This document shows positions 1-61,995 of a stretch of 64,000 nt of DNA, in pieces. Origin of the DNA: Saccharomonospora piscinae. Lineage in GTDB: Bacteria; Actinomycetota; Actinomycetes; Mycobacteriales; Pseudonocardiaceae. Position 1 is the stretch's first letter; each line of letters starts with the position of its first letter. A program made the translations under genes and the position numbers. The DNA is taken from contig NZ_VCEK01000007.1 of the NCBI RefSeq assembly GCF_005862235.1, forward strand, positions 68,798-132,797, read 5' to 3'. The notes below the pieces were generated by a model. It saw nothing but the letters and a program-made list of their open reading frames with translations. It was not told where the DNA came from and searched no databases.

Positions 1-105
1 ACGGGAGCTGCGGACTCGGCTACGGGAGCTGCGGACTCGGCTACGGGAGCTGCGGACTCGGCTACGGGAGCTGCGGACTCGGCTACGGGAGCTGCGGACA
101 CGGCG
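1..105. repeat. 21-bp tandem repeat array, 5 units
   Basis: Five consecutive 21-bp units. In core phase the 15-bp cores TGCGGACTCGGCTAC start at 9, 30, 51 and 72, each followed by the identical 6-bp spacer GGGAGC. A fifth, altered core (TGCGGACACGGC) starts at 93 and runs directly into the stop codon of the leftward Nudix gene at 106-108. The array is cut by the window edge, so it may be longer. Related units occur at 28533-28633, 49482-49593 and 59672-59716. Confidence 0.95.
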
Positions 106-645
106 TCAGCGGTCGAGGGCGGCCGCGATCAGTTCGGTCAGGTCCTCCGTGCCAGGGGGGAGTTGCCGGACCGGCCACCACCGGAGGTCCTCGGACTCCT
201 CGCTGACCACCGGGCGCGCGCCCTGGCCTGCCCGGGCCACGAACCGCACGTCGAAGTGCCGGGTCGGCACGCCGAGCGAGCACGTCACGGGGTGGACGTC
301 GAGGTGAACCGGTTCCGGGTCGAGGGTCAGCTCGCGCAGCCCCGACTCCTCGGTGGCCTCCCGCAGTGCCGCCTCGGCGAGTGAGGTGTCCTCGGGCTCG
401 CAGTGCCCACCGAGCTGCAACCACCGGCCGAGCCTGCCGTGCAGGGTCAGCAGCACGTGCTCGCCCTCGGCGTCGAGCACCACGGTGGAGGCCGTCAGGT
501 GGCCCGCCGCGCACGAGCGGTCGCAGGCGTCGGCGCGCGCGGCGAGGTAGCCGAGGTAGCTGTGCCGCAGCGACTCCTGCCCGGCGTCGGTGGGCTGCCA
601 CTTCTCCAGGGTCGCGGTCGCGTCGGCGTGCAGTGCGTTCACCAT
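106..645 (-). CDS. Nudix hydrolase downstream of fbiB
   Basis: A 179-aa Nudix-fold hydrolase, expected to cleave nucleoside diphosphates linked to another moiety; the substrate is unknown. The Nudix signature is present in a slightly stretched form, with GGHCEPED followed by REATEESGL at about residues 79-102. The second glycine lies one residue further from the RE pair than in the classical box. The start ATG overlaps the 3' end of fbiB by 7 nt, so it should be translated with the F420 operon, but a role in F420 metabolism is only inferred from position. A 21-bp repeat array directly abuts its stop codon. Confidence 0.85.
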
Positions 646-27345: not shown

Positions 27346-28527
27346 ATGGCTGAGATCGTGCTCGACAAGGTGACCAAGCGGTTCCCCGACGGAGCCCTCG
27401 CCGTGTCGGAGATGGACATCCAGATCACCGACGGGGAGTTCGTCATCCTCGTCGGTCCGTCGGGCTGCGGGAAGTCGACGGCGCTCAACATGATCGCCGG
27501 GCTGGAGGACATCTCCTCCGGTGAGTTGCGCATCGACGGGCAGCGGGCGAACGAGAAGACGCCGAAGGACCGGGACATCGCGATGGTGTTCCAGTCCTAC
27601 GCGCTCTACCCGCACATGAGCGTGCGGGAGAACATGGCCTTCCCACTGCGGCTGGCCAAAGTGGACGACGCCACGGTGCGCCAGAAGGTCGAGGAGGCGG
27701 CCGGCATTCTCGACCTCACCCAGCACCTCGACCGCAGGCCGTCCAACCTCTCCGGCGGGCAGCGTCAGCGGGTCGCCATGGGGCGTGCCATCGTGCGCAG
27801 TCCCAAGGCGTTCCTCATGGACGAACCGCTGTCGAACCTGGACGCGAAACTGCGGGGGCAGATGCGCACGTCGGTGTCGAAACTGCAGAAGCAGCTCGGC
27901 ACCACCACCGTGTACGTCACCCACGACCAGACCGAGGCCATGACGCTGGGCGACCGGGTCGTGGTGCTGCGCGGCGGTGTCGTGCAGCAGATCGGGTCGC
28001 CGCAGTTCCTCTACGACCACCCCGCGAACCTGTTCGTGGCCGGGTTCATCGGCTCGCCGTCGATGAATTTCGTCCCCGCCACCCTGGAACAGGGTGCGCT
28101 GAACAGTGCCCTTGGCAAGATCGAGCTGTCCGACAGCGTGCGGCGCAAGGCCGAGGCGGCGGACGCGCCACGCGAAGTGATCATGGGCGTGCGCCCCGAG
28201 CACTTCGAGGACGCCGCGCTGGTCGAAGAGGGTCACCGCCAGGGCGGTGCGTCGTTCAGCGCCACGGTGGACGTGCTGGAGTCGATGGGCTCGGAGAAGT
28301 ACGCGTACTTCAGCGTCGAAGCCGAGTTGGCGAGCACGGCGGAGCTGCAGGAACTCGCCGCCGACGCCGGAGCCGCCGACGTGCCGGGCGCGGGTTCCAC
28401 CATCGTGTCGAGGCTGTCGGCCGCCTCGGCGGTCCGGGAGGGCGATCAGGCCAAGGTGTGGTTCGACGTGGACAGCGTCCAGCTGTTCGACCCGTCGTCG
28501 GGCCGCAACCTCACCTACGCGGAGTAA
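27346..28527 (+). CDS. sugC: Trehalose ABC transporter ATPase SugC
   Basis: A 393-aa MalK/UgpC-type ATPase. Walker A is GPSGCGKST (37-45), the Q-loop is VFQSYALYPHMSV, the signature is NLSGGQRQR, Walker B is AFLMDEPLSNLD, and the switch is YVTHDQTEA. A C-terminal TOBE/regulatory domain (about 235-393) follows. It powers the LpqY-SugAB importer. A 21-bp repeat array begins 5 nt after the stop codon and separates it from the convergent ParB-like gene. Confidence 0.94.
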   Translation: MAEIVLDKVTKRFPDGALAVSEMDIQITDGEFVILVGPSGCGKSTALNMIAGLEDISSGELRIDGQRANEKTPKDRDIAMVFQSYALYPHMSVRENMAFPLRLAKVDDATVRQKVEEAAGILDLTQHLDRRPSNLSGGQRQRVAMGRAIVRSPKAFLMDEPLSNLDAKLRGQMRTSVSKLQKQLGTTTVYVTHDQTEAMTLGDRVVVLRGGVVQQIGSPQFLYDHPANLFVAGFIGSPSMNFVPATLEQGALNSALGKIELSDSVRRKAEAADAPREVIMGVRPEHFEDAALVEEGHRQGGASFSATVDVLESMGSEKYAYFSVEAELASTAELQELAADAGAADVPGAGSTIVSRLSAASAVREGDQAKVWFDVDSVQLFDPSSGRNLTYAE

Positions 28528-28532
28528 CCCAC

Positions 28533-28633
28533 ACGCCGTGTCCGCAAGTTACGTAGCCGAGTCCGCACCGCACGGGTGCGGACTCGGCTACACCAACTGC
28601 GGACACGGCTACGTAATCTGCGGACACGGCTAC
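28533..28633. repeat. Inverted array of 21-bp repeat units
   Basis: Five units of the same family as 1-105, arranged two leftward and three rightward. Leftward cores lie at 28533-28546 and 28553-28567, rightward cores at 28577-28591, 28598-28612 and 28619-28633, on a strict 21-bp period with variable 6-bp spacers. The two inner cores are exact complements, giving a 16-bp perfect stem with a 7-nt loop (28553-28591). The array fills the gap between the convergent stops of sugC and the ParB-like gene and probably ends transcription from both sides. Confidence 0.92.
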
Positions 28634-28638
28634 ACCGG

Positions 28639-29484
28639 TCAGCTCTGCTGGGCTCGCATCGTCTGGAAGAACTCGTCGTCCCACCGGTGGGTTCGCATCA
28701 GTCGGTACCGTTCGCACGCCACCCACAGGTACGCTTCCGCCTCCGTGCGCGTGCCCACCAGATCGGCCTGGCGCAACATGCGCACCACCGGCAGGTACTC
28801 GTCGTCGTACCAGCGCCTGGCGACGGTCGCCCGGTCGAGCATCGTGCCCTCGTCCTGCATCAGCCGGAATCCCCATGCCTCCACGTGCTCGCCGAGCTGG
28901 GCGTAGTTCCAGTGATCGGTCATCACGACGGCCGCTCTGGCCTCCCCGCGCAGCGGCACACGTTCGAGGAACAGCCTGCGGTAGTCCTTGACGATGAGGT
29001 CGCCGCGGTGCCGGATGCCCTCGGGGTTGAGTTTGGTCCTGACCTCCACGACGGCGGCCTCGATGGAGGTCAGCCCCAGCGCGAACGCCACCGACACCCG
29101 GTGGTGCCCGTCGATGACGAAGTGCAGGTCGCCGACGCGGTAGACCTCGATGGGCGGGATGTGCTCGCCGCGCCTGCTGGCGAGGGCCAGCCGCTCCCAC
29201 CGCTGCCGCACCCTGGCCGAGGTCGGCCGGAACCGGCGGTCGAAGTCGCGGCCCCGGTCGACGCTGCCGACGATCGAGTCGAGCCGGACCACCCGGGTGC
29301 CGATCCGGCGTTCGCCGATCCTGCCGAGTGCCCGCACCACCTCGTCGAACGGCAGCATGATGTTGACGTCGTCGGGCTCGCGCCGGAGCCAGGTCGACAG
29401 CCGGGACAGCACCTGGCGGCGGCGCGCTCGCAGGAAGTCGTGTTCTGCGTCGGCCTTCGGGAAGCCGGTGTCGCGGTTCTTCAC
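28639..29484 (-). CDS. ParB N-terminal-like domain protein
   Basis: A 281-aa protein. Its central segment (VYRVGDLHFVIDGHHRVSVA) is the ParB/Srx-type fold with the GHHR motif of ParB-like nuclease or NTP-binding domains. The N-terminal part is helical and basic (FLRARRRQVLSRLSTWLRRE). The C-terminal half carries conserved-looking WYDDEYLPVVRMLRQ and TEAEAYLWVACERYR. It is unlikely to be the chromosome partition protein, since no parA is near. The GTG at 29484 overlaps the phosphoesterase stop by 4 nt and follows GGAGGC. Confidence 0.75.
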   Translation of the reverse strand: MKNRDTGFPKADAEHDFLRARRRQVLSRLSTWLRREPDDVNIMLPFDEVVRALGRIGERRIGTRVVRLDSIVGSVDRGRDFDRRFRPTSARVRQRWERLALASRRGEHIPPIEVYRVGDLHFVIDGHHRVSVAFALGLTSIEAAVVEVRTKLNPEGIRHRGDLIVKDYRRLFLERVPLRGEARAAVVMTDHWNYAQLGEHVEAWGFRLMQDEGTMLDRATVARRWYDDEYLPVVRMLRQADLVGTRTEAEAYLWVACERYRLMRTHRWDDEFFQTMRAQQS

Positions 29485-43342: not shown

Positions 43343-44248
43343 ATGACGCGCGCCGTGTCGGAGTCGACCCGCGAGAAGACCGCTGAACGGCTGCTCAAGT
43401 CGTCGGCCAACAAGTTCTACGACCCCGAGATCGACATCGACTGGGACGCGCCGCTGGAGGAGGGCAAGCACTTCATCCCACCGGAGCGTTCCACGCTCTA
43501 CGGCACCGAGCTGTGGGACCGGCTCACCCCCGAGCAGCGCATCGAACTCGGCAAGCACGAACTCGCCAGCATCGCCACCAACGGCATCTGGTTCGAGGTG
43601 CTGCTCATGCAGATGCTGCTCAAGGAGGTCTACGACACCGACCCGACCACCGGGTTCGCCCAGTACGCCCTCACCGAGATCGCCGACGAGTGCCGCCACT
43701 CGACGATGTTCGCGCGGCTTTCCGACCGCGTCGGCTGCCCGCACTACGGGCCCGTTCCGTGGCGCAGGCGGCTCGGCAAGGTGCTCAACCTCCTCGCGTA
43801 CGGTCCCGCCATGTACGGCTCGATCCTGGTCGCGGAGGAGATCCTCGACCGGTTGCAGCGCGAGCAGATGAACGACCCGGAGATCCAGCCGCTCGTGCGC
43901 ATGGTCAACCGCATCCACGTGCTGGAGGAGGCGCGCCACGTCACGTTCGCCCGCGAGGAGGTCAAGCGCGGGATGGCGCGGCTGCGCGGTCCGGAGCGGG
44001 CCTACCAGCAGTGGCTGATCGCCGTCGTCGCCAACGAGATCACCCACAGCCTGGTCAACCCCGCCGTCTACAAGGCCGTGGGTATCCGTCCCCGCGACGG
44101 ATACCGCGCGGCCGTCGCCAACCCGCACTGGCGGGAGAGCGTGCGCTACTCCGGCGAGCGGATCATGAGCTTCCTCGACGACGCCGGGCTCGTGGGGGCG
44201 CCCGGAATGCCGTGGTGGCGCCGCTCGCACCTGCTGGCGGCCCGATGA
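43343..44248 (+). CDS. AurF-like diiron oxygenase
   Basis: A 301-aa non-heme diiron protein of the p-aminobenzoate N-oxygenase AurF family, which oxidises arylamines in known members. Carboxylate/histidine ligand motifs EIADECRHSTMF and VLEEARHVTFAREE are present, with a further Glu in the helix HELASIATNGIWFEV. No biosynthetic gene cluster surrounds it, so its substrate is unknown. An earlier GTG at 43331 or 43334 is possible. It is followed by a hydrolase gene with a 4-nt overlap. Confidence 0.85.
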   Translation: MTRAVSESTREKTAERLLKSSANKFYDPEIDIDWDAPLEEGKHFIPPERSTLYGTELWDRLTPEQRIELGKHELASIATNGIWFEVLLMQMLLKEVYDTDPTTGFAQYALTEIADECRHSTMFARLSDRVGCPHYGPVPWRRRLGKVLNLLAYGPAMYGSILVAEEILDRLQREQMNDPEIQPLVRMVNRIHVLEEARHVTFAREEVKRGMARLRGPERAYQQWLIAVVANEITHSLVNPAVYKAVGIRPRDGYRAAVANPHWRESVRYSGERIMSFLDDAGLVGAPGMPWWRRSHLLAAR

Positions 44249-45186
44249 GCGCCCGGCGGTTCACCACGGCCGACGGGACCTCGCTGGCGGTGGAGTGGGG
44301 CGGTGGTTCCGGCGACTCCGGCGACTTCGGCGACTTCACAGCCGACGGTCCGACCGTGGTCCTGGTCCACGGCTGGACCCAGGACCGCGGGACGTGGGAC
44401 CGGGTCGTCGAGCTCCTGCCGCCGGACGTGCGGTGGATGCGCTACGACCTGCGGGGGCACGGCGAGTCGGCGCCCGCTGTGCCCGGCGGCGCGACCATCG
44501 CCCGGCTCGCCGACGACCTCGCCGAGATCGTGGAGGACGCCGTCACGACCGGGCGCGTGGCACCGCACGGTGGGTTGCTGCTTGCCGGTCACTCCATGGG
44601 CGGAATGACGATCATGGCGCTGGCCGAGCGGCATCCCGAACTGGTGCGACAGCACGCCAGCGGTGTCGTGTTCGTGTCCACGGCGTGTGCCGACATGGGC
44701 CGCGTGACGCTCGGTCTGCCGGGCGCGGCAGGCCGCGCGGCCCACCGCGTCGAGCGCGGGCTCGCCACCGCGCTCGCGGGCTACCGGCGCGACCGGCTCC
44801 CGCTGCGTCCCGCCGTCGCGCGCGTGGGCACCCGGTGGCTGGTGTTCGGTCGCCGGCCCCGGCGCGCCGACGTCGCCTCGGTGACCGACCAGCTGCTGCG
44901 CGCTCATCCGGCGAGCGTCGGGGCATTCCAGACCGAGATCTCCGTCCACGACCGCACCGCCGCACTCGCGACCCTGCGCGGAGTCCCGGGTGCGGTGCTC
45001 ACGGGCACGGCCGACCGGCTGTGCTCACCCCGGCACGCCCGGGCCATCGCCGACGAGCTGGGCTCGGCGCACCTGGTGACGCTGCCGGACGCGGGGCACA
45101 TGCTGGCGCACGAGCGGGCGCACGACGTGGCCGACCAGATCACGGCGGTCGCGGCGCGCCGCGAAGCCGCGCCGCTGCCGAGTTGA
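44245..45186 (+). CDS. Alpha/beta hydrolase coupled to AurF-like gene
   Basis: A 313-aa alpha/beta hydrolase. LVHGWTQDRGTWD forms the oxyanion loop, LLAGHSMGGMTI holds the nucleophile serine, and LTGTADRLCSP and LPDAGHMLAHERA supply the acid and histidine. ATGA overlap with the oxygenase gene suggests a shared role, perhaps hydrolysing a product or precursor. A short Gly/Asp/Ser/Phe-rich insert (GDSGDFGDF) sits near the N-terminus. Confidence 0.85.
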   Translation: MSARRFTTADGTSLAVEWGGGSGDSGDFGDFTADGPTVVLVHGWTQDRGTWDRVVELLPPDVRWMRYDLRGHGESAPAVPGGATIARLADDLAEIVEDAVTTGRVAPHGGLLLAGHSMGGMTIMALAERHPELVRQHASGVVFVSTACADMGRVTLGLPGAAGRAAHRVERGLATALAGYRRDRLPLRPAVARVGTRWLVFGRRPRRADVASVTDQLLRAHPASVGAFQTEISVHDRTAALATLRGVPGAVLTGTADRLCSPRHARAIADELGSAHLVTLPDAGHMLAHERAHDVADQITAVAARREAAPLPS

Positions 45187-45204
45187 GCGGCTGCTCGGCT
45201 GCTC

Positions 45205-45870
45205 TCAGTCCCGACCGGACAGCGGGAAGCCCGCGCCGATGCCCCGCCAGGCCAGCGTGGAGGTGAGCGCCACGGCCTCATCCTGCGACATCGAGCTGTT
45301 GGCCAGCCAGAACCGGGCACTGACCTGGCTCATCCCCACCAGCCCGACGGCCAGCAGGCGGGCCTTCTCCTCGTCGAGACCGGCGTCGGCAGTGATCGTC
45401 TCGGTGATCGCGTCGACGCTGGCCGTCGTGGCCCGGTCCACGGCCTCCTGCACGGACGGTTCGCCACGGAGGTCCGATTCGAACACCATGCGGAACGCGC
45501 CCGCGTCGCCGTTGACGAACTCGAAGAAGGCGCCCACCGCGTTCTTGACCCGCTGCTTGTTGTCCGTCGTGGACGCCAGCGCCTGCTGCACGGCGGACAC
45601 CAGGGTGTCGACGTGGCTTTCCAACAGGGCGATATAGAGGTCGAGCTTGCCGGGGAAGTGCTGGTACAGCACGGGTTTGCTGACGCCCGCGCGCTCGGCG
45701 ATGTCGTCCATCGCGGCGGCGTGATAGCCGTTGGCCGCGAACACCTCCTGCGCGGCGGCCAGCAACTGAGCCCGGCGCTCCGTGCGCGGGAGCCGCACCC
45801 CGCGACCGAACGGTGCCGAGCCGGTCTCCTGGCTCGGCACCTGTGCGCGCGCCTGCCCTGTCTCCGTCAT
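45205..45870 (-). CDS. TetR-family regulator (Rv3208-like)
   Basis: A 221-aa TetR regulator. LPRTERRAQLLAAAQEVFAA, GYHAAAMDDIAERAGVSKPV and LYQHFPGKLDLYIALLE give the helix-turn-helix domain. It resembles Rv3208, which neighbours DUF3107 in M. tuberculosis. The ATG at 45870 follows GGAGGCGGGG. It is divergent from the next hydrolase gene. Target and ligand are unknown. Confidence 0.87.
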   Translation of the reverse strand: MTETGQARAQVPSQETGSAPFGRGVRLPRTERRAQLLAAAQEVFAANGYHAAAMDDIAERAGVSKPVLYQHFPGKLDLYIALLESHVDTLVSAVQQALASTTDNKQRVKNAVGAFFEFVNGDAGAFRMVFESDLRGEPSVQEAVDRATTASVDAITETITADAGLDEEKARLLAVGLVGMSQVSARFWLANSSMSQDEAVALTSTLAWRGIGAGFPLSGRD

Positions 45871-45958
45871 CCCCGCCTCCACTCGAACTTCCCACCGCAG
45901 ACTACTCGTGGGTACGTACCGCACGCCAAACCTGGTGTCCGTCAGGCATGCTGGAACC

Positions 45959-46984
45959 GTGCCCGAAACGTTCACCAGTTCACCCGACAGCCTGACGGGC
46001 GTGGGGGCCAGGCCGCCGCTCACGCACGTGCCGCTGTCGGCCACGCCACTGCCGGACCTCGACGACACCGCCGGACCGTGGCCCGGGACGAGGCGGGAGA
46101 TCGGTGACCTCGCCCTGCACGTGCGGCACACCGAGGACCCGGCGGATCAGCCTGCGCGCCACGGGACGGCGGTGTACGTACACGGGCTCGGCGGCTCGTC
46201 CACCAACTGGACCGACCTCGGCAGGCTGCTGTCGCCACACGCGGCGGGGCAGGCGGTGGACCTGCCCGGATTCGGGTTCTCCGAGCCGCTGGACGGGTTC
46301 ACCTTCAGCCTCGCGGCACACGCCGACGTCCTCGCCGGCTACCTGGCCACCCACACCGAGGCCCCGGTGCATCTGCTCGGCAACTCCATGGGCGGCGCGG
46401 TCGCGATGCTCGTGGCGGCCCACAGGCCCGATCTCGTGCGCACACTCACCCTCATCTCGCCTGCCATGCCCGACCTGCGGCCCGACCCCCGCAGGCTCTC
46501 GGACCCGAGGCTGGCGCTGGCCTACCTGCCGGTCGTCGGCAGGCGGGTGCGGCGCACCCTCGCCGCGCTGACGCCGAGGCAACGCGCCGAGCAGGTCATC
46601 CGGCTGTGCTTCGCCGACCCGGACTCGTTTCCCGCGCGCCGCTTCGACGAGCTGGTCGAGGAACACAGTGCCCGCGCGGCCTACGGCTGGGCCGAACGCG
46701 CGATGGCGCTGAGCACGATGGAGATCTTCCGCGCCTGGTTCACCCGCGGCGCGGGGTCGCTGTGGTCGCTGGCGCCCGGGATCACCGCGCCCACGCTGGT
46801 GGTCTGGGGCACGGAGGACCGGGTGATCTCCGTCCGCCGCGCCCCGAGGACGGCGAAACTGATCCCCCGGGCCCGGCTGTTCGTCGTCCCCAGGACGGGA
46901 CACGTCGCCCAGATGGAGCGACCCACGACCGTGGCCAGGGCCGTACTCGGGCTGTGGGACGGTGTCGACGCCGGGCACTGGTAG
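45959..46984 (+). CDS. Alpha/beta hydrolase
   Basis: A 341-aa alpha/beta hydrolase with VYVHGLGGSSTNWTDL, the nucleophile in LLGNSMGGAVAML, and the distal VVWGTEDRVIS and GHVAQMERP. The GTG at 45959 is preferred; the open frame upstream overlaps the divergent TetR coding sequence. A CATGCT hexamer 7 nt before it suggests a leaderless transcript. Substrate unknown, lipase/esterase-like. Confidence 0.82.
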   Translation: MPETFTSSPDSLTGVGARPPLTHVPLSATPLPDLDDTAGPWPGTRREIGDLALHVRHTEDPADQPARHGTAVYVHGLGGSSTNWTDLGRLLSPHAAGQAVDLPGFGFSEPLDGFTFSLAAHADVLAGYLATHTEAPVHLLGNSMGGAVAMLVAAHRPDLVRTLTLISPAMPDLRPDPRRLSDPRLALAYLPVVGRRVRRTLAALTPRQRAEQVIRLCFADPDSFPARRFDELVEEHSARAAYGWAERAMALSTMEIFRAWFTRGAGSLWSLAPGITAPTLVVWGTEDRVISVRRAPRTAKLIPRARLFVVPRTGHVAQMERPTTVARAVLGLWDGVDAGHW

Positions 46985-47076
46985 GGCGGGCGTGCCCGCA
47001 ACGGGTGACACGGGATCGGCCGAACGCGCCGAGCCGGGCGCGTTAGAGGACGCGATGGTGTGGCACTCTGACACTC

Positions 47077-48177
47077 GTGGAGCGGGTAACAGAAGGAACA
47101 CGAAAGGACCACCGGAACGTCGCGGCGGCCGGTCGCGGTTCCGCTGCTTCCCGTGGTTCCGACGGGCCCGAGCCCGCCGAGGAGGAACACGAGGGCGAGC
47201 GGCGGCGTCCCGGTGAACCGTTGCGTGCCGCGTGGCGCCCCGAGGGCACCCGGACCCGGCACGCGTCGACGAAGTCCGGGCTGAGGCGGTTCACCGCCGC
47301 GTTCGGCTGGCGCGCCTACCTGGTGCCCATCCTGCTCGTCGTCACCGCCCTCGTGGTGTTCGACACCACAAGGGGGTCGGGGGCGTCCGACAACGGGTCG
47401 CCGGACGCCGCGAGCAGCGGTGGCAACGGGGCCGACGAGGAGCAGCGGGCGCCGGTGGCCACCGAGGTCCCGGCCTCACCCGTCGACCTCGACATCCCCA
47501 CCGCCGAACTCCCCGACGGCGGCGACTACACGGAGTCGGGCGAGGGGAGCTGGCACGTCGTCCCGCTCGCCGAGGGCAGTGGCGAGCAGGCGGGCGAGAC
47601 CGGGGAGGTCTGGACGTACACCGTCGAGGTGGAAGACGGGCTCGATCCGGGCAGCTACACCGGAGACGACAGCTTCGCCGCCTCCGTGGAGGCCATCCTG
47701 GCCAGCGAGCGCAGCTGGGTCGGTACCGGCGACGTCGCGATGAAGCGGGTCGACGGCAGCCACCCCGCTCCGCGCTTCCGCGTGAGCCTCACGTCACCCG
47801 AGACGACCGGCGAGCTGTGCGGCACGGCCATCCCGTTCGAGTCGTCCTGTTACAAGAGCACCACCCCGGACGGGCCCCGGGTCGTGATCAACCTCGCGCG
47901 GTGGGTGCGCGGAGCGAAGGCGTTCGGCGGCGACGACACCGGCTACCGCCAGTACGTGATCAATCACGAGGTCGGTCACGCCCTCGGAAACAACCACGTC
48001 GGTTGCCGCGAGGACGCCGAACTCGCGCCCGTGATGATGCAGCAGACGTTCGGCGTCGCCAACGACTACGTCGCGAAGCTCAACGACATGCCCGGCGGCG
48101 ACGTCGGCGCCGTGCCCGCCGACGGCAAGGTCTGCAAACCCAACGCCTGGCCCAACCCGCAGCCGGACGGCGACTGA
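47077..48177 (+). CDS. DUF3152 protein, putative extracellular zinc metalloprotease
   Basis: A 366-aa protein. A charged cytoplasmic N-terminus (1-80) is followed by a membrane helix (AYLVPILLVVTALVVF, about 85-100). A low-complexity linker and an extracellular DUF3152 domain follow, containing NHEVGHALGNNHVGC, a metzincin-like zinc site HExGHxxGxxH. Cysteine pairs (ELCGT, ESSCYK) may form disulfides. It corresponds to Rv3207c next to moeZ. A GGGTGG/CCACCC stem lies just after the stop (48181-48198). Confidence 0.85.
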   Translation: MERVTEGTRKDHRNVAAAGRGSAASRGSDGPEPAEEEHEGERRRPGEPLRAAWRPEGTRTRHASTKSGLRRFTAAFGWRAYLVPILLVVTALVVFDTTRGSGASDNGSPDAASSGGNGADEEQRAPVATEVPASPVDLDIPTAELPDGGDYTESGEGSWHVVPLAEGSGEQAGETGEVWTYTVEVEDGLDPGSYTGDDSFAASVEAILASERSWVGTGDVAMKRVDGSHPAPRFRVSLTSPETTGELCGTAIPFESSCYKSTTPDGPRVVINLARWVRGAKAFGGDDTGYRQYVINHEVGHALGNNHVGCREDAELAPVMMQQTFGVANDYVAKLNDMPGGDVGAVPADGKVCKPNAWPNPQPDGD

Positions 48178-48242
48178 GCGGGGTGGCACGCCCCACCCTC
48201 GCCCACCATGTGGACGGGGAAGACCGGGGCCGCTCGCGCGGT

Positions 48243-48248
48243 TATAGA
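48243..48248 (+). promoter_or_regulatory. -10 element of moeZ
   Basis: TATAGA in otherwise GC-rich DNA, 44 bp upstream of the moeZ ATG, after a terminator-like GGGTGG/CCACCC stem at 48181-48198. The -35 is weak. It suggests moeZ has its own housekeeping promoter. Confidence 0.5.
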
Positions 48249-48292
48249 TGAATGAGACCGCGATTCGCGGACACGCGCGAGATGGAGGACTG

Positions 48293-49468
48293 ATGTCAAC
48301 GCTGCCGCCGCTCGTCGAGCCTGCCGCCGAGCTCACCAAGGAAGAGGTCGAGCGCTACAGCCGCCACCTCATCATCCCGGACGTCGGCATGGCGGGGCAG
48401 AAGCGGCTCAAGAACGCGAAGGTCCTGGTCATCGGTGCCGGTGGACTGGGAAGCCCGGCGCTGCTGTACCTCGCCGCGGCGGGGGTCGGCACCCTCGGCG
48501 TCATCGACTTCGACGTCGTGGACGAGTCGAACCTGCAACGGCAGGTCATCCACGGTCAGTCCGACGTGGGCAAGCCCAAGGCCGTGTCCGCGCGCGAGTC
48601 GATCGCCGAGATCAACCCGCTCGTCGACGTCGTGCTGCACCAGGAGCAGCTCACGACGGACAACGCGCTCGACGTGTTCGCCGGGTACGACCTCATCCTC
48701 GACGGCACCGACAACTTCGCCACGCGCTACCTCGTCAACGACGCGGCGGTGCTGCTCGGCAAGCCGTACGTGTGGGGGTCGATCTTCCGGTTCGAGGGAC
48801 AGGTGAGCGTCTTCTGGGAGGACGCGCCGGACGGCCGGGGACTCAACTACCGCGACCTCTACCCCGAGCCGCCGCCTCCCGGCATGGTGCCGTCGTGCGC
48901 CGAGGGCGGCGTGCTGGGCGTGCTCTGCGCCTCCATCGGTTCGATCATGGTGACGGAGGCGGTCAAGCTCATCACCGGCATCGGCGACCCGCTGCTCGGC
49001 AGGCTCGTCACCTACGACGCCCTGGAGATGCGGTACCGCGAGGTGAAGATCCGCAAGGACCCGGAGACGCCGAAGATCACGGAGCTGATCGACTACGAGG
49101 CGTTCTGCGGTGTGGTGTCCGACGACGCCCAGCAGGCCGCGTCCGACCACACGATCACCCCGGCGGAGCTGCGGGCCAAGTTCGACGCGAGCGAGAACTT
49201 CGAGCTGATCGACGTCCGGGAGCCTCACGAGTACGAGATCGTCAACATCAAGGGCGCGACGCTGATCCCGAAGGACCGCATCCTGTCCGGGGAGGCGCTG
49301 GCCGAACTCCCGCAGGACCGGCCCATCGTGCTGCACTGCAAGTCCGGCGTGCGTTCGGCCGAGGCGCTGGCCGCGCTGCACAAGGCGGGCTTCCGCGACG
49401 CGACCCACCTCGGTGGCGGCGTGCTCGCGTGGGCCAGGCAGGTCGACCCGAGCCTCCCGACGTACTGA
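48293..49468 (+). CDS. moeZ: MoeZ, adenylyltransferase/sulfurtransferase
   Basis: A 391-aa two-domain protein. An E1-like MoeB domain (about residues 10-260: VLVIGAGGLGSPALLYLAAA, the adenylation Arg in RQVIHGQSDVGK, and DGTDNFATRYLVND) is joined to a C-terminal rhodanese domain with active Cys in LHCKSGVRS. It activates and sulfurates ubiquitin-like carriers (MoaD, CysO, ThiS) for molybdopterin and other sulfur pathways. Molybdopterin is needed by the nitrate reductase 1 kb downstream. The ATG follows GGAGGAC. It matches Rv3206c. Confidence 0.93.
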   Translation: MSTLPPLVEPAAELTKEEVERYSRHLIIPDVGMAGQKRLKNAKVLVIGAGGLGSPALLYLAAAGVGTLGVIDFDVVDESNLQRQVIHGQSDVGKPKAVSARESIAEINPLVDVVLHQEQLTTDNALDVFAGYDLILDGTDNFATRYLVNDAAVLLGKPYVWGSIFRFEGQVSVFWEDAPDGRGLNYRDLYPEPPPPGMVPSCAEGGVLGVLCASIGSIMVTEAVKLITGIGDPLLGRLVTYDALEMRYREVKIRKDPETPKITELIDYEAFCGVVSDDAQQAASDHTITPAELRAKFDASENFELIDVREPHEYEIVNIKGATLIPKDRILSGEALAELPQDRPIVLHCKSGVRSAEALAALHKAGFRDATHLGGGVLAWARQVDPSLPTY

Positions 49469-49481
49469 TCACCCCGCAGCC

Positions 49482-49593
49482 TGCGAACACGCCGACACAG
49501 CCTGCGGACACGGCTACACAGCCTGCGGACACGCCGGTGGTGGGGGCCCGCACCGGCGTGTCCGCAGTTCTCGTCGCCGTGTCCGCAGTTCCC
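49482..49593. repeat. Inverted array of 21-bp repeat units
   Basis: Three rightward cores (49482-49496, 49503-49517, 49524-49538) face two leftward cores (49552-49566, 49573-49587) across 13 bp, all on the 21-bp period. A partial third leftward unit starts at 49594. The inner pair is variant (ending GCCGGT and starting ACCGGC) but exactly complementary, giving a 15-bp perfect stem. The array lies 13 bp after the moeZ stop, before a gene on the same strand, and may terminate the moeZ transcript. Confidence 0.9.
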
Positions 49594-49623
49594 GTAGGCC
49601 TGGCGGCGGGGTAACGTCGCCGC

Positions 49624-50409
49624 GTGGATCACCGACCGCCCCCCGAGCACGTCCGCAGGGCGTTCGGGCTGGGCGCGGCCGACGTGACACCCGTGGGGAC
49701 GACGTGGCGAGCCGGGGACGTCGTGCTCGAACCGGTGCGCGACCGCGCGTTCGCGGCGTGGTTGTGCCGGACCCTCGCCGGGTTGGAGCTGCCAGGGCTG
49801 CGGGTGGCACGCCCCATCGGGGCAAGCGACGGCCGCTGGGTGGTCAGCGGGTGGCGTGCTCGCCGGCACGTGTCCGGAGTCGTGGAACACCGTCCCGACG
49901 AGACCGTGCTGGCCGCGGTGCGGTTGCACCAGGCCACCGCGGACTTTCCCCGCCCGCCGGAGCCGTCCGAGCGGGACGACGCCTTCACGCTGGCCGAACG
50001 CATGGCCTGGGACGAGCAGCACCAGGACCTCGACGAGGCCACGGGAGGGCGGCTGTTCGAGATCCTGGCACTGGCGCGCCGTCCGGTCTCCGCGCGGGAC
50101 CAGCTGGTGCATGCCGAGCTGTTCGGCACGTTGCTGTTCGACGGTGACGAGCCGCCGGGGCTGGTCGGTTTCGTCCCCCACTTCCGACCGGCGGAGTGGG
50201 GTGCCGCGGTGGCGGCGGTGGACGCGGTGGCCTGGGGCGGCGCCGACGGGGCGCTGTTGCGCCGCTGGTCGCACCTGCCCGCGTGGCCGCAGCTGCTGTT
50301 GCGGGCGACCCTCTTCCGCCTGGCATGGCACGCCCTGCATCCTGCCTCCGGTGCGACGACGCTGGACGGCCTTCGCCGCGCCGCGAACGAGGTCACCGAG
50401 CTGCTGTAG
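49624..50409 (+). CDS. TIGR02569-type protein (Rv3205c-like)
   Basis: A 261-aa actinobacterial protein of the TIGR02569 family. It starts VDHRPPPEHVRRAFG and contains WRAGDVVLEPVRD, VSGWRARRHVSGV and LVHAELFGTLLFDG. The general layout recalls aminoglycoside-phosphotransferase-like kinases (HxDxxxxNxLF-type loop here HAELFGTLLF), but the catalytic Asp is not conserved, so kinase activity is doubtful. Synteny with moeZ matches Rv3205c-Rv3206c. Confidence 0.78.
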   Translation: MDHRPPPEHVRRAFGLGAADVTPVGTTWRAGDVVLEPVRDRAFAAWLCRTLAGLELPGLRVARPIGASDGRWVVSGWRARRHVSGVVEHRPDETVLAAVRLHQATADFPRPPEPSERDDAFTLAERMAWDEQHQDLDEATGGRLFEILALARRPVSARDQLVHAELFGTLLFDGDEPPGLVGFVPHFRPAEWGAAVAAVDAVAWGGADGALLRRWSHLPAWPQLLLRATLFRLAWHALHPASGATTLDGLRRAANEVTELL

Positions 50410-50539
50410 CGCCGCGCACCTCACCGCGGGCCCCGGGTCGATGCGCGCACACCGCAGCGTGACCGAAACCTGCCGCCTCACGCGCGTAACACGGGATTCC
50501 TAGCGTCGAGAACCGCCGCCGATGAGGCAGGAGGTCCCT

Positions 50540-52642
50540 GTGACGCTGACGGAGTCCGGTCCGGCACCCGCCGACCCCGAGTCCCGCACCGACTCGCACT
50601 GCCCGTACTGCGCTTTGCAGTGCGCCATGACTCTCGGTTCGTCGGGCACCGTCGGGGCCCGCGACTTCCCCACGAACGGGGGAGGGCTGTGTCAGAAGGG
50701 CTGGACCGCGGGCACGCTGCTGGGCTCCCCTGCCCGGCTCACCACACCGCTCGTGCGCGAGGACGGTGAGTTGCGACCCGCGAGCTGGGACACGGCGCTC
50801 GATCTCGTGGCCGCGCGCCTGCGCCGCCTTCGGCGCGACCACGGGCCGGACGCGGTGGCGGTCTTCGGCGGCGGGGGACTCACCAACGAGAAGAGTTACC
50901 TGCTCGGCAAGTTCGCGCGGGTAGCGCTGGGTACCTCGCAGATCGACTACAACGGCCGGTTCTGCATGTCGTCGGCCGCGGCGGCGGGGACGCGGGCGTT
51001 CGGGCTCGACCGGGGCCTGCCGTTTCCGCTGACCGACGTGGGTGAGGCGGATGTGGTGGTGCTCGTGGGCGCGAACCCGGCCGAGACGATGCCACCGTTC
51101 GTGCGCCACCTCCACGGGGCGCGGACGCGCGGCGGGCTCGTGGTGGTCGATCCCCGACGCACGCCGACGGCACAGCTGGCGACCCTGCGACTGGCTCCCG
51201 CGCCGGGGACGGATCTGGCTCTGGCGCTGGGCATCCTGCACGCGACCGTCGAGGCGGGACGAGTCGACGAATCCTTTGTGGAGCAGAGGACGACGGGCTT
51301 CGACGCGGTGTGGCGGGTCGCGGCAGCCTACTGGCCCGAGCGGGTGGAACGCCTTACCGGAGTGGCGGCGGCCGACCAGCGCCGGGTGGCCACGATGCTC
51401 GCCGGAGCGCGCCGTGCCTACGTGCTGACGGCGCGGGGAGCGGAGCAGCACGCGAGCGGCGTCGACACCGTGAGCGCGTGGATCAACCTCGCGCTGGCGC
51501 ACGGCCTGCCCGGGCGGCCCGGATCGGGTTACGGCTGCCTGACGGGGCAGGGCAACGGGCAGGGCGGCAGGGAGCACGGGCAGAAGGCGGACCAGCTTCC
51601 GGGATATCGCCGGATCACCGACCCGGCGGCCCGTGAGCACGTGGCGCGCGTGTGGGGCGTGGCGCCCGCCTCGTTGCCGGGGCCGGGCCGGTCGGCGTAC
51701 GAGCTGCTGGACGCACTGGGCACCGAGGATGGCCCGAAGGCGTTGCTGGTGTTCGGCAGCAATCCCGCGGTCTCGGCTCCGCGCGCGGCGCACGTGGTCG
51801 AGCGGTTGGCGGCGCTCGACCTCCTGGTGACGGCCGATCTGGTGTTGTCGGAGACGTCGGCGCTGGCCGATGTGGTCTTCCCGGTCACGCAGTGGGCGGA
51901 GGAGACGGGCACGATGACCAACCTCGAAGGCCGGGTGCTGCTGCGGCGCAGGGCGCTCCCACCACCGCGGGACGTGCGTACCGATCTCGCCGTCCTGGCC
52001 GCGCTGGCACGACGGCTCGGACAGCCCGCCGCGCGCTTTCCCGCCGAGGCGGAGGAGGTGTTCGCCGAGTTGCGCGCCGCATCGCGCGGCGGGCCCGCCG
52101 ACTACTCGGGCGTGAGCTACGACCGGCTGCGCGCGGGTGAGGCGCTGTACTGGCCGGTGCCGGACGACGACCATCCCGGGACGCCGAGGCTGTTCGTCGA
52201 CGGCTTCGCCCATCCCGACGGCCTCGCCCGCTTCGCCGCGGTGGACCACACCGGGCCCGCCGAAACACCCGACGACGAGTTTCCCTTGGTGGCGACCACG
52301 GGACGGGTGCTCGCGCAGTACCAGTCCGGGGCGCAGACGCGGGCGATCCCGGAGCTGCACGACACAGCGCCCACCGTCGTCGTGGAGGTCCACCCCGACA
52401 CCGCCGTGGGGGCGGGGCTAGCCGACGGGGACGAGGCCAGGGTGGTCTCCCGGCGCGGTGCCGTGCGGGCGCGGGTGCGCACCGAGCCGTCGATGCGCCC
52501 GGACGTCGTGTTCCTTCCGTTCCACTTTCCCGGTGAGCAGCGGGCCAACCTGCTGACCAACCCCGCGCTCGATCCCACGAGCCGCATGCCCGAGTTCAAG
52601 GTGTGCGCCGTGCGCCTGCTGCCCTCCGGTGGTGTGTCGTGA
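50540..52642 (+). CDS. nasC: Assimilatory nitrate reductase catalytic subunit
   Basis: A 700-aa molybdopterin bis-MGD oxidoreductase. The N-terminal [4Fe-4S] cysteines are CPYCALQC and LCQKGW. The molybdenum-ligand cysteine is probably in GRFCMSSAAAAG. MGD-binding stretches (VVLVGANPAETMPPF, LVFGSNPAVSAP, GRVLAQYQSG) follow. It reduces nitrate to nitrite in the cytoplasm. The GTG at 50540 follows GGAGG. NasB-like flavoprotein, nitrate transporter and NirBD genes follow, so assimilation is the likely role. Its stop overlaps the next start. Confidence 0.93.
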   Translation: MTLTESGPAPADPESRTDSHCPYCALQCAMTLGSSGTVGARDFPTNGGGLCQKGWTAGTLLGSPARLTTPLVREDGELRPASWDTALDLVAARLRRLRRDHGPDAVAVFGGGGLTNEKSYLLGKFARVALGTSQIDYNGRFCMSSAAAAGTRAFGLDRGLPFPLTDVGEADVVVLVGANPAETMPPFVRHLHGARTRGGLVVVDPRRTPTAQLATLRLAPAPGTDLALALGILHATVEAGRVDESFVEQRTTGFDAVWRVAAAYWPERVERLTGVAAADQRRVATMLAGARRAYVLTARGAEQHASGVDTVSAWINLALAHGLPGRPGSGYGCLTGQGNGQGGREHGQKADQLPGYRRITDPAAREHVARVWGVAPASLPGPGRSAYELLDALGTEDGPKALLVFGSNPAVSAPRAAHVVERLAALDLLVTADLVLSETSALADVVFPVTQWAEETGTMTNLEGRVLLRRRALPPPRDVRTDLAVLAALARRLGQPAARFPAEAEEVFAELRAASRGGPADYSGVSYDRLRAGEALYWPVPDDDHPGTPRLFVDGFAHPDGLARFAAVDHTGPAETPDDEFPLVATTGRVLAQYQSGAQTRAIPELHDTAPTVVVEVHPDTAVGAGLADGDEARVVSRRGAVRARVRTEPSMRPDVVFLPFHFPGEQRANLLTNPALDPTSRMPEFKVCAVRLLPSGGVS

Positions 52643-54111
52643 CACCCCGCAGGGTGGTCGTGCTGGGGTACGGCATGGCGGGTGCGCGCCTGGCCGACGA
52701 GGTCGTACGCCGGGACCCCGACGGCGAGCGGGTGGCGCTGACCGTCGTGGGGGACGAACCGCATCCCGCGTACAACCGGGTGCTGCTGTCGTCGGTGCTG
52801 GCGGGGTCGCTGAGTGCGGACGCGGTGCGCCTGCACGAGCCGGGATGGGCGGCGGCGCATGGTGTGGACCTGCGGGTCGGCACCAGGGCGTGCCGCCTCG
52901 ACCGGCGGGCGCGGCGGGTGTGGCTGGCCGACGGCGCCGCGCTCGACTACGACACGCTGGTGCTGGCCACCGGCAGCACACCGTGGCTGCCGCCCGTGGA
53001 GGGGCTGGCCTGCCCCGGCGGGCTCGCCGACGGGGTGGTCGCCTTCCGCACGCTCGACGACTGCGAGCGCCTGGTCGCCGCGGCGCGGCCCGGTGCGCCC
53101 GTGGTGGTGGTCGGCGGCGGACTGCTCGGGCTGGAGGCCGCCAGGGGTCTGGCCGGACGCGGCAGCCTGGTCACCGTCGTGCATCCGGCCTCGCACCTGC
53201 TGAACCGGCAGCTCGACGCCGCCGCGGGCGGGGTGCTGGCCGCGACGCTGCGCGACGCGGGCGTGGAGTTCCGGCTCGGTCGCGGCGTGGCGGGCTACGT
53301 GCCGGGCGACGGGGTGAAGCTCGACGACGGGACGCACCTCGATGCCGAACTCGTCGTGGTGGCGGCGGGGGTCCGCGCCGAGACCGCGCTGGCCCGCGAC
53401 GCCGGTCTCGCGGTGGAGCACGGTGTCGTCGTCGACGACGCGTTGCGGACCAGCGACGGCCGGATTCACGCTCTCGGTGACTGCGCGCAGCACCCGAGTA
53501 CCGCCTCGGGCCTGGTGCAGCCGGCGTGGGAGCAGGCCGCGGTGCTGGCCGACCTGCTCACCGGCACGGACGTCGCGGCGCGCTACCGGGGCACGGCGGT
53601 GGTGACCCGACTGAAGGCCCGGGGCGTCGAGCTGACCGCGCTGGGCGAGTCGTGCTCCGAACCGGACGAGTTCGGCGATCCGGACGCCGATCCGGATGTC
53701 GAGGTGGTGCGTGTCCACGATCCCGCCCGGCGCCGCTACGCCAAGCTCGTGCTGCGGCACGACCGGGTGACCGGCGCCGCGTTGCTCGGGTTCCCCGACG
53801 CGGCGGCCGTGCTCACCCAGCTGCACGACCGTGCCGTCCCCGCGCCGGCCGACCGGCTCGCGCTCCTGCTGGGACGGGCGTTGCCCACCGGGGCCCGCGC
53901 CACCGGGGGCAACGCATCCCCCGCGGATCTGCCCGGCTCGGCGATCGTGTGCCGCTGCAACTCCGTGACCAAGGCCGCGCTCGTGACGGCCTGGCGTTCC
54001 GGGGCGACCACTGTGGACGGACTGTCGGCGCGGACCCGTGCCGCCACCGGGTGCGGTGGCTGCACCGACACCGTGTGCGGCATCGCCGACTGGCTGGCGA
54101 GCAGTTCCTGA
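52639..54111 (+). CDS. nasB: Nitrate reductase electron-transfer flavoprotein (NasB/NirB-N-like)
   Basis: A 490-aa FAD/NAD(P)-dependent oxidoreductase. It has the FAD motif VVVLGYGMAGARLADEV, NAD motif VVVVGGGLLGLEAARGLA, and the second FAD motif RIHALGDCAQHP. It ends in a bacterioferritin-associated-ferredoxin-like [2Fe-2S] domain (VCRCNSVTK and TGCGGCTDTVC). It resembles the N-terminal half of NirB and B. subtilis NasB, so it likely passes NAD(P)H electrons to NasC, with which it overlaps by 4 nt. Confidence 0.88.
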   Translation: MTPRRVVVLGYGMAGARLADEVVRRDPDGERVALTVVGDEPHPAYNRVLLSSVLAGSLSADAVRLHEPGWAAAHGVDLRVGTRACRLDRRARRVWLADGAALDYDTLVLATGSTPWLPPVEGLACPGGLADGVVAFRTLDDCERLVAAARPGAPVVVVGGGLLGLEAARGLAGRGSLVTVVHPASHLLNRQLDAAAGGVLAATLRDAGVEFRLGRGVAGYVPGDGVKLDDGTHLDAELVVVAAGVRAETALARDAGLAVEHGVVVDDALRTSDGRIHALGDCAQHPSTASGLVQPAWEQAAVLADLLTGTDVAARYRGTAVVTRLKARGVELTALGESCSEPDEFGDPDADPDVEVVRVHDPARRRYAKLVLRHDRVTGAALLGFPDAAAVLTQLHDRAVPAPADRLALLLGRALPTGARATGGNASPADLPGSAIVCRCNSVTKAALVTAWRSGATTVDGLSARTRAATGCGGCTDTVCGIADWLASSS

Positions 54112-54156
54112 CTCCCGTACCCGCGTACTTCCGCATCCCCCGAACCGAGGAGGCTT

Positions 54157-55551
54157 ATGGCACTCGCACCGGAGCACCCGATCCCCACCACCTCCTCGTT
54201 CCGGCTGCGCGGTCGCTGGCTCGACCGCTGGGAGCCGGAGGACCCCGCGTTCTGGCGCGCGGGCGGCAGGCGGACCGCCTGGAAGAACCTGGTGCTCTCG
54301 ATCTTTTCGGAACACCTGGGGTTCAGCGTCTGGGTGCTGATGAGCATCGTGGTCACCGACCTCGGCTCGGCCGGGTACGACTTCACCGTCGGGCAGACGT
54401 TCTGGCTGCTCATCGTGCCGAACCTCGTCGGCTCGGTGCTGCGCGTGCCGTACACGTTCGCCACGCCGCGTTTCGGTGGCCGGGCGTGGACGACGGTGAG
54501 TTCGGCCCTGCTGGCGATCCCGTGCGCGATGTTGCTGCTCGCGGTGACGAACGAGGGCACGCCGTACTGGTTCTTCCTGCTCACCGCCGCCGCGATGGGC
54601 CTGGGCGGCGGCAACTTCTCCTCGTCCATGGCCAACATCAGTTTCTTCTTCCCGGAACGGGAGAAGGGGCTCGCGCTGGGGCTCAACGCGGCGGGCGGCA
54701 ACATCGGTGTCGCCGTCACCCAGCTCGCCGTGCCGCTGGTCATCAGCATCGGCACGGGAACCACACTCGCCTACGCGGCACTGATGTGGCTGCCGGTCGT
54801 GGTGCTCTCGGCGTCGCTGGCCTGGCTGTTCATGGACAGCATCACGGCGGCGAGGCCCGACGGGCACTCGTACCGGACGGCGCTGCGCAGCAAGCACACG
54901 TGGGTGATGTCGCTGCTGTACGTGGGCACGTTCGGGTCGTTCATCGGGTACTCGTTCGCGTTTCCCACGCTGATCGAACTCAGTTTCGCGGGCTACGAGC
55001 ACTACGTCGGGCTGGCGTTCATCGGCGCGGCCATCGGGTCGGCGGCCCGCCCGTTCGGCGGCTGGCTGTCCGACCGGATCGGCGGCGCCAGGGTCACGGT
55101 GTGGACCTTCGTGGCGCTCGGCGCGGGCACGGTGGGAGTGCTGATCAGCGTGACCAGGCACGACTTCGGGCTGTTCTTCGCCTCCTTCGTGGCGCTGTTC
55201 GTGTTCACCGGCATCGGCAACGGCTCGACCTACCGGATGATTCCGGCGATCTTCGCGGTCGAGGCGCACCGCACGGCACCGGCGGGGGCGGACCCGGTCC
55301 GGGTCACGGCGTCGGCGAAGCGCCAGGCCGCGGCCGTCGTCGGGGTGTGCGGCGCGCTCGGCGCGTTCGGGGGCGTGCTGGTCAACCTGGTGTTCCGGTT
55401 CTCCCTGCTCGGCGCCGACGCCGACATCGCGTCGGCGCTGCTCGTGATCCTCGCGTGCTACGTCGTGTGCCTGGTGGTGACGTGGTGGTTCTACCTGCGG
55501 CGCGGCGTCGCGGCGGGCCGTGCGCCGAGCCTGGCGACCGCGCGGGTGTGA
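54157..55551 (+). CDS. narK: Nitrate/nitrite transporter NarK family
   Basis: A 464-aa MFS nitrate/nitrite porter. The nitrate signature motifs are AMGLGGGNFSSSMANISFFF and GTGNGST-like GIGNGSTYRMIPAIF. Conserved arginines lie in the helices (VPNLVGSVLRVPYTF, RPFGGWLSDRIGG). An N-terminal cytoplasmic stretch includes RWLDRWEPEDPAFW. It should bring nitrate in (or export nitrite) for NasC. It sits 45 bp after nasB, probably in the same operon. Confidence 0.92.
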   Translation: MALAPEHPIPTTSSFRLRGRWLDRWEPEDPAFWRAGGRRTAWKNLVLSIFSEHLGFSVWVLMSIVVTDLGSAGYDFTVGQTFWLLIVPNLVGSVLRVPYTFATPRFGGRAWTTVSSALLAIPCAMLLLAVTNEGTPYWFFLLTAAAMGLGGGNFSSSMANISFFFPEREKGLALGLNAAGGNIGVAVTQLAVPLVISIGTGTTLAYAALMWLPVVVLSASLAWLFMDSITAARPDGHSYRTALRSKHTWVMSLLYVGTFGSFIGYSFAFPTLIELSFAGYEHYVGLAFIGAAIGSAARPFGGWLSDRIGGARVTVWTFVALGAGTVGVLISVTRHDFGLFFASFVALFVFTGIGNGSTYRMIPAIFAVEAHRTAPAGADPVRVTASAKRQAAAVVGVCGALGAFGGVLVNLVFRFSLLGADADIASALLVILACYVVCLVVTWWFYLRRGVAAGRAPSLATARV

Positions 55552-55586
55552 GGCGCGCACGGCGGTGCCGCGCGGCGGAGGGTTCG

Positions 55587-55602
55587 GTAACCGCGCCGCA
55601 AC
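55587..55602 (+). promoter_or_regulatory. GlnR-like half-site upstream of nirB
   Basis: GTAAC-CGCGCC-GCAAC fits the GTnAC-N6-GAAAC pattern of actinobacterial GlnR boxes with one mismatch. It lies 71 bp before the nirB ATG, where nitrogen control would be expected. Upstream of nasC, GTGAC, GAAAC and GTAAC fragments occur (50459-50490) but not at the required spacing. Confidence 0.5.
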
Positions 55603-55672
55603 ACCGGGGAATTCGGGCGGACACGGCCGCTGCGCAGCATGGGGACAGCTCTCGCGACGAAAGGGAGAGGCG

Positions 55673-59666: not shown

Positions 59667-59671
59667 CCCGC

Positions 59672-59716
59672 CCCGCCGTGTCCGCAGCCCACGTAGCCGT
59701 GTCCGCACTTCCCGTA
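59672..59716. repeat. Short array of 21-bp repeat units
   Basis: Two leftward cores of the repeat family (59672-59686 and 59693-59707) on the 21-bp period, with spacers GCCCAC and CTTCCC. A partial third unit (GTA at 59714) runs to the stop codon of the DUF3224 gene (59719-59721). The array starts 5 nt after the stop of the HemD-wHTH gene, between convergent genes. There is no facing array, so no long hairpin. Confidence 0.88.
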
Positions 59717-59718
59717 GG

Positions 59719-60123: not shown

Positions 60124-60145
60124 GGCCCCAGTCTCCGGCCCATAC

Positions 60146-60161
60146 CTGTCACCTGCTGTCA
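60146..60161. promoter_or_regulatory. CTGTCA direct repeat, probable WYL regulator site
   Basis: Two CTGTCA hexamers start 10 bp apart (60146 and 60156), one helical turn, in the gap between the divergent DUF3224 and WYL-regulator genes. The second is followed by GG. It is likely the regulator's binding site, inferred from position. Confidence 0.5.
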
Positions 60162-60177
60162 GGTTTTCGCGCGCAGA

Positions 60178-61984: not shown

Positions 61985-61995
61985 CGCGGTCCCGG

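Follow-up and report, generated by a model that had tools for sequence, protein, structure and literature searches.

Four arrays of a short repeated unit were found in the window (i.e., the whole stretch of 64,000 nucleotides from Saccharomonospora piscinae that was analysed), each abutting or lying close behind a stop codon (Table 1). In the genome of this species (G000), the unit consists of a 15-bp core, TGCGGACACGGCTAC, followed by a 6-bp spacer, and is repeated with a pitch of 21 bp. Matches to the core at up to three mismatches numbered 20 in the window as opposed to a mean of 4.7 and a maximum of 9 in shuffled sequences. At the window start, the outermost array unit overlaps the stop codon of a NUDIX gene (positions 106-645, minus strand), the core being 4 nt behind the stop, and the left arm of this array begins just before the window, where its first core is 8 nt behind a plus-strand stop. 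An assembly gap of Ns separates the two arms, the whole array comprising L214 8600-8905 and window positions 1-107. Two other contigs of G000 (C4 and C5) also start with such cores and thus, from these starts and the Ns inside the present array, arrays of this kind seem to break assemblies. The second array is flanked by convergent genes at 27346-28527 (plus) and 28639-29484 (minus), with gaps of 4 and 5 bp to their stops, while the third lies between co-directional genes, 13 bp behind the stop of a ThiF/rhodanese gene (48293-49468) and ahead of a 261-aa gene (49624-50409). For the fourth, the gaps to the stops of its convergent neighbours are 5 and 11 bp. The initial annotation had described four repeat loci, all within about 13 bp of a stop or abutting it, and was accurate in both respects; its statement that two loci sit between convergent genes was corrected to three of four, the locus at 49482 being the co-directional one. 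The gene names moeZ, gnd, prfC and TIGR02569 are presumed labels, the domains tested being ThiF and rhodanese only.

Table 1. Coordinates of repeat arrays in the window and of GTGAAGGGCACTTTCCCTGCGT repeats in two related genomes
Feature	Coordinates	Strand	Composition and setting
Right arm of two-armed convergent array	window 1-107	+	5 units: 9-23, 30-44, 51-65, 72-86, 93-107
Two-armed array	window 28532-28633	.	9-bp centre CCGCACGGG, preceded by two minus units and followed by three plus units
Two-armed array	window 49482-49587	.	long hairpin centre, preceded by three plus units and followed by two minus units
One-armed array	window 59672-59707	-	two minus units; between convergent genes 58554-59666 (+) and 59719-60123 (-)
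GTGAAGGGCACTTTCCCTGCGT repeats (G185)	L169 5192-5318, 8372-8478, 9099-9251; L162 10003-10261
GTGAAGGGCACTTTCCCTGCGT repeats (G207)	L143 447-761

Array units were located with the 9-mer TGCGGACAC at up to one mismatch, and the conservation of this 9-mer in counts of unit dialects is therefore partly due to selection. This effect was avoided in conservation figures from interior units, which were picked solely by the match of both neighbours, their own match being disregarded. Thus, conservation per position among 101 interior units of G000 was 86-100% in the core versus 58-80% in the spacer, and corresponding values among 50 interior units of dialect-2 species were 70-100% and 36-76%. Among same-strand neighbours 10-35 bp apart, 190 of 195 in G000 and 121 of 123 in dialect-2 species had an offset of exactly 21 bp. 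The conserved cores, mostly variable spacers and period of two helical turns first noted at the four loci were all upheld by these results. In 1.03 Mb sampled from G000, 67 distinct arrays of 2-13 units each were identified, 40 of which were one-armed (some of these being cut off where a sampled stretch ends) and 27 two-armed. The usual two-armed layout was [GTAGCCGTGTCCGCA-N6]n, centre, [TGCGGACACGGCTAC-N6]m; the reverse order of arms was seen in 8 of 92 convergent or co-directional arrays, including the one at window position 49482. Among the 41 array centres listed, 16 were 8 bp long, one was 9 bp and 16 were 29 bp, most of the last consisting of 8 bp plus one unit below the detection threshold. 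The pattern YCGYRCGR fits 9 of the 15 distinct 8-bp centres.

The 4.9-Mb genome of G000 (11 contigs) contained 288 + 256 = 544 matches to the core at up to two mismatches compared with 13 + 21 = 34 for the reversed pattern used as a control, which places the repeat family well above chance frequency. Arrays of at least two units were intergenic, the two exceptions being at the 3' end of a called gene, whereas single 9-mers at up to one mismatch in 464 kb (113 in genes versus 34 intergenic) look like chance matches. Thus, equal occurrence inside genes, which like chance frequency would have argued against a family according to the initial annotation, does not describe the arrays. In the two exceptions (L178 15796-15873 and L137 8056-8091), the called frame may simply continue into the array. 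Only seven arrays were noted in one 400-kb stretch (G000:C4:200001-600000, L176-L195) while other stretches were dense, so many gene ends do without arrays. For 56 array sites of G111 placed relative to an origin assumed near 2.97 Mb, the distribution over fifths (9/18/16/5/8) was not significantly uneven (KS p 0.057).

The position of arrays was assessed from 117 arrays (115 distinct; the array at the start of the window, cut by Ns, entered this count as two) of seven species, with expected values from 1552 gaps between genes called by a custom script rather than a standard gene caller. Many of the sampled stretches were chosen for containing cores, which biases density but should not bias position in the gene map. 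Convergent gaps held 47 of the 117 arrays versus 21 expected (Fisher p 3e-9), co-directional gaps 45 versus 65 and divergent gaps, where no gene ends, 15 versus 21 (chi-square p 2e-9 for the three-way split), both p-values being too small because arrays of related species are not independent; the remaining arrays were inside called genes (2) or at stretch ends (8). The upstream stop was the nearer boundary for 41 of the 45 co-directional arrays, at a median distance of 12 bp compared with 95 bp to the next start, and the placement behind stops seen in the window was thereby extended to the larger sample. Among 126 stop-array pairs, 62 had the outermost sense core 2-12 nt past the stop, and in 24 of these the distance was exactly 4 nt; 19 of the 24 read TGA-CRCC-GTGTCCGCA. 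Nine of the 24 were from dialect-2 species, which had CRCC or CATC at this point even though GC is the usual ending of their inner units. One-armed co-directional arrays were sense to the gene in 14 cases and antisense in 10, and orientation is thus not strict. Overall, a 15-bp core and a less conserved 6-bp spacer recur every 21 bp directly behind stops, in either one arm or two inverted arms, the latter often with an 8-bp centre. Position alone is no proof of function since in a compact genome a repeat can do little harm mainly at 3' ends.

The excess of arrays between convergent genes is one of the results expected if the inverted arms formed a long RNA stem that halts transcription from both sides, i.e., if the arrays were bidirectional hairpin terminators as suggested in the initial annotation. 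Predicted folding of 26 arrays (11 two-armed and 15 one-armed) was in partial agreement with this explanation. Thus, 9 of the 11 two-armed arrays folded at z-scores of -3.4 to -10.2, with sense energies of -67 to -122 kcal/mol; in the window, z was -8.5 (-88.6 kcal/mol) for the array at 28532 and -7.4 for that at 49482. Strong folds (z -3.1 to -4.6) were also predicted for five of ten array-free gaps between adjacent orthologs, which suggests that some relatives carry a hairpin where others carry an array; values for the other gaps were -1.9 and -2.4 in two and -1.0 to +0.1 in three. On the opposite side, the remaining two two-armed arrays, each with a short second arm, gave z-scores of only -1.4 and -1.2, and no strong hairpin was predicted for 14 of the 15 one-armed arrays (z -1.8 to +2.4; -4.0 for the other), the one-armed form being the one taken by 40 of the 67 arrays of G000. 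The one-armed array at window position 59672 had no stable fold (z -0.3 / -0.5). In addition, spacers that face each other across the two arms matched no better than non-facing spacers in G000 (0.31, n=38, versus 0.32, n=111), with corresponding values of 0.26 (n=14) versus 0.23 (n=81) in G111 and of 0.25/0.61, 0.44/0.36 and 0.42/0.40 in smaller samples. Hairpin pairing was rejected as a selected trait on this basis. A T-tract (5 T in 8 nt) was present behind only 1 of 54 two-armed ends, the background being 128 of 20650 (0.6%). A promoter and terminator scan of window positions 44001-64000 returned five terminator-like sites (3.2 in shuffled sequences), none at an array, and no Rfam match above the gathering score was obtained in the window. 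Since most one-armed arrays lack a predicted hairpin, facing spacers are unmatched and T-tracts are rare, a plain hairpin terminator is not enough, and we consider it unlikely that termination of this kind accounts for the family; what stands of the suggestion is the strong predicted fold of most two-armed arrays.

Variation of the core among related species was evident from searches of 297 genomes of the family. The core of G000 at up to one mismatch was frequent only in G000 (416 matches), G173 (115) and G024 (107), with 15 matches in G144, 8 in G062 and 0-6, like the control, in the others. With a looser spaced pattern, arrays were detected in 7 of the 11 other genomes of the genus (33-191 matches each, where the control gave 0), and G160, G185, G196 and G207 had none, for a total of 8 array-bearing genomes among 12. 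The outer half of the core was GGCTAC in G000 (76 of 146 units), GGCTGC or GGCTAT in G024 (6 of 13), GGGTGC in G144 (8 of 24) and GCGTGC in G090 (10 of 38), G062 (14 of 33), G111 (27 of 70) and G128 (5 of 17). In both gene trees, species with GCGTGC or GGGTGC formed one clade (100/99), and the forks that set species with GGCTAC outside it had support of 85 to 95.

Arrays with these different cores were found at the same gene ends. Thus, the end of the ThiF/rhodanese gene (window position 49469) carried arrays with clade-specific units in G090, G062, G111 and G128 and a one-armed array in G024, with none in G144, G196 and G207. Orthologous arrays were present at the gene end at window position 28528 in G090 and G062 but not found there in G111 and G128, at L048:4084 in G062, G111, G128 and G144, and at L048:17042 in G090, G062, G111, G128 and G144. 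The arrays at L048:17042 are one-armed and have kept their place and orientation in five species while the number of units changed. The array at window position 59672 was missing in G196, the source of the one adjacent ortholog pair found. In the window and three further stretches of G000, counts of ortholog gaps with an array in both species, in G000 only, in the relative only and in neither were 4/1/1/41 for G062, 3/1/2/40 for G090, 3/2/2/39 for G111, 3/2/2/37 for G128, 2/2/0/35 for G144, 1/2/0/28 for G024, 0/2/0/5 for G173, 0/2/0/7 for G196, 0/1/0/14 for G185, 0/1/0/4 for G207 and 0/0/0/1 for G160. The simplest reading of the few orthologous gene ends is that pre-existing arrays acquired a different core where they stood, although repeated insertion at the same ends may have had the same outcome.

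A second unit, GCGAGTTG, unrelated to TGCGGACAC but with the same 21-bp pitch, was identified in the four genomes of the genus without TGCGGACAC arrays. Matches to this unit numbered 311, 158, 157 and 49 in these genomes and 0-7 in the other eight, with controls of 0-3 in all twelve, and the four genomes formed a sister clade (100/98) in the tree of the ThiF/rhodanese gene. Inspection of 30 clusters at 23 sites in seven genomes placed the end of the GCGAGTTG repeats within 20 bp of a called stop at 10 sites and revealed inverted arms at 8; one site was called inside a gene and one between divergent genes, and the six clusters of G269 matched the layout poorly. The GCGAGTTG core and pitch also occurred, in local dialects, in other genera (90 matches in G084, 79 in G106, 76 in G269 and 47 each in G253 and G286), as did ACGCGAGTT at a 21-bp pitch in five genomes of g16 (10 to 55 exact matches, control 0). 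A third motif, GTGAAGGGCACTTTCCCTGCGT, with a period near 30 bp and inverted copies, was present at gene ends in G185; at two of these ends, TGCGGACAC units occur in other species (six and three, respectively). By eye, a CRISPR-like array with the repeat GTCTTCCCCGCGCACGCGGGGGTGGTCC was also noted in G185 (L162 6792-7286), a genome without TGCGGACAC arrays.

Several of these observations would be accounted for by a neutral or self-spreading extragenic repeat that spread by slippage, ectopic conversion or some unnamed route, survived only behind stops, where it did little harm, and was homogenised within each clade by conversion, which would also explain the dialects. Thus, arrays lengthen gaps whose counterparts in a relative are short (87 versus 25 bp in G024 at L047:12284 and 139 versus 22 bp in G173 at L048:4084), and their presence varies among species at many sites. 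Adjacent units, moreover, are often local copies. Identical spacers were found in 16% of adjacent pairs in G000 as opposed to 3% between arrays, and in 0% (G090), 50% (G062), 33% (G111) and 41% (G144) of adjacent pairs as opposed to 1-6% between arrays, from which local copying appears to be common in some species. Copying would, however, carry the spacer along, yet the spacer of interior units is looser than the core at a constant pitch; one-armed arrays stayed in place in five species with varying numbers of units, and the unrelated unit GCGAGTTG shares the pitch. Matches to the Y1 transposase family PF01797, a broad stand-in for RAYTs, were also restricted to 4 of the 12 genomes of the genus (G000, G111, G128 and G160), and 5 of the 8 array-bearing genomes (G024, G062, G090, G144 and G173) gave no match. 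Taken with the points in its favour, a spreading repeat of this kind is a real possibility, held at something short of even odds. In G000 itself, there was one full Y1 transposase match (L266, G000:C4:159916-160278) and one partial match (G000:C7:48201-48344). RAYT-driven mobility was rejected because genomes of the genus with transposase matches and those with arrays do not coincide, and a phage origin because viral contigs contained no exact match to one array pattern.

Resemblance to REP elements, also raised in the initial annotation, extended to dispersal but not to the unit itself. Five consensus units (four TGCGGACAC and one GCGAGTTG), folded on both strands as possible palindromes, gave only -0.6 to -4.8 kcal/mol compared with -14.4 kcal/mol for an E. 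coli REP (sequence from PMC2817692). The GTAG of G000 units, which results from the outer half GGCTAC, is missing in one clade, being replaced by GCAC or GTAC (from GCGTGC or GCGTAC) in G090, G062 and G111, and no transposase match was obtained in the five array-bearing genomes named above.

The explanation that we prefer, with a probability of roughly 0.4, is that the arrays are phased sites for a putative DNA-binding protein at the ends of transcription units. Each core would be the site of a sequence-specific protein that binds double-stranded DNA, and the two turns per unit would align successive copies of it along the same side of the helix. Arrays bound in this way may mark the end of the transcription unit as a roadblock or pause for RNA polymerase coming from the gene, and/or may insulate converging units from each other topologically, and termination may be aided further by the RNA hairpin of two-armed arrays; the dialects may reflect co-evolution of the core with the protein. 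A protein-binding array was among the original suggestions and appears to fit best, as the core and pitch are held, the spacer is looser and the core differs by clade. A fixed pitch of two turns and looser spacers are as expected of a protein on one helix face, and since facing spacers are unmatched and T-tracts rare, selection or homogenisation seems to act on core and pitch more than on a stem. Also in favour of protein sites are the excess of arrays in convergent gaps, the closeness of co-directional arrays to the upstream stop, the clade-specific cores at orthologous positions, the one-armed arrays kept in five species and the fact that the sister clade and some other genera repeat an unrelated core, GCGAGTTG, every 21 bp. 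Against them are the 15 of 117 arrays between divergent genes, where no gene ends, the many gene ends that do without arrays, the lack of a clear orientation among one-armed co-directional arrays and the 3 of 10 ortholog gaps that have neither an array nor a strong fold. To shift hundreds of sites together with one protein across two clades is, in addition, a demanding idea. Protein sites and a neutral repeat are close as explanations, given how often units are copied locally in some species and that a repeat is safest at 3' ends.

Termination in actinobacteria is poorly explained by T-tract hairpins, and if a factor does bind the arrays, these would represent a new way to end or insulate transcription units in this group. 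Non-palindromic arrays at a fixed helical pitch, whose cores vary from clade to clade at shared gene ends and give way in the sister clade to an unrelated core with this pitch, also constitute a natural experiment that could separate selfish spread from function. A wider and, in our estimate, doubtful proposal is that gene-end markers on a 21-bp pitch occur throughout the Pseudonocardiaceae, as a chromosome-wide system in which a lineage-specific and rapidly re-specified putative factor on the arrays would take over from hairpin terminators in ending or insulating transcription units. The unit might then vary in dialect or even be exchanged completely (between TGCGGACAC and GCGAGTTG, in either direction), provided that its pitch and location stay the same.

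Plasmid iterons are likewise direct repeats with a spacing of about two helical turns, bound by one protein, but the present arrays differ from them in being dispersed over the chromosome at gene ends. With intrinsic terminators they share a position past stops and, in most two-armed arrays, a very stable predicted hairpin, but differ in the rarity of T-tracts, the unmatched facing spacers and the mostly hairpin-free one-armed form. A CRISPR array, described in PMC3733652 as 24-48 bp repeats with unique spacers of regular size at one or few loci, was ruled out by the 21-bp period, 6-bp spacers, dispersal and inverted arms. Recognition tags for DNA uptake or recombination with species dialects, as in Neisseriaceae and Pasteurellaceae, would be a highly improbable explanation, and we know of no natural transformation in Saccharomonospora. 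The DNA uptake sequences (DUS) treated in PMC3630211 have a short invariant core, clade-specific flanks and inverted pairs tied to terminators. The present arrays, with an invariant core spelled differently around it in each clade and with inverted pairs past genes, resemble the DUS dialects of Neisseriaceae, which are the nearest parallel for the clade-specific spelling of arrays. In contrast with DUS, which are described there as commonly intragenic, the 21-bp arrays keep a fixed pitch and sit outside genes. We found no description of such 21-bp repeats in open-licence literature, although they may be described elsewhere. REP/BIME elements are treated in PMC3733652 and PMC2817692 as high-copy short extragenic repeats, mostly past coding regions, between convergent or co-directional ORFs and often in opposite orientation; the main text of PMC3733652 makes no mention of Saccharomonospora, Saccharopolyspora, Amycolatopsis, Streptomyces or Actinobacteria. 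The 21-bp arrays are likewise extragenic and mostly behind genes, with a similar place and layout, but their unit is non-palindromic and directly repeated at a 21-bp pitch, GTAG is not genus-wide and Y1 transposases do not track them. Thus, while the arrays are not filed as members, REP/BIME elements are the nearest known kind and BIMEs are what the arrays resemble.
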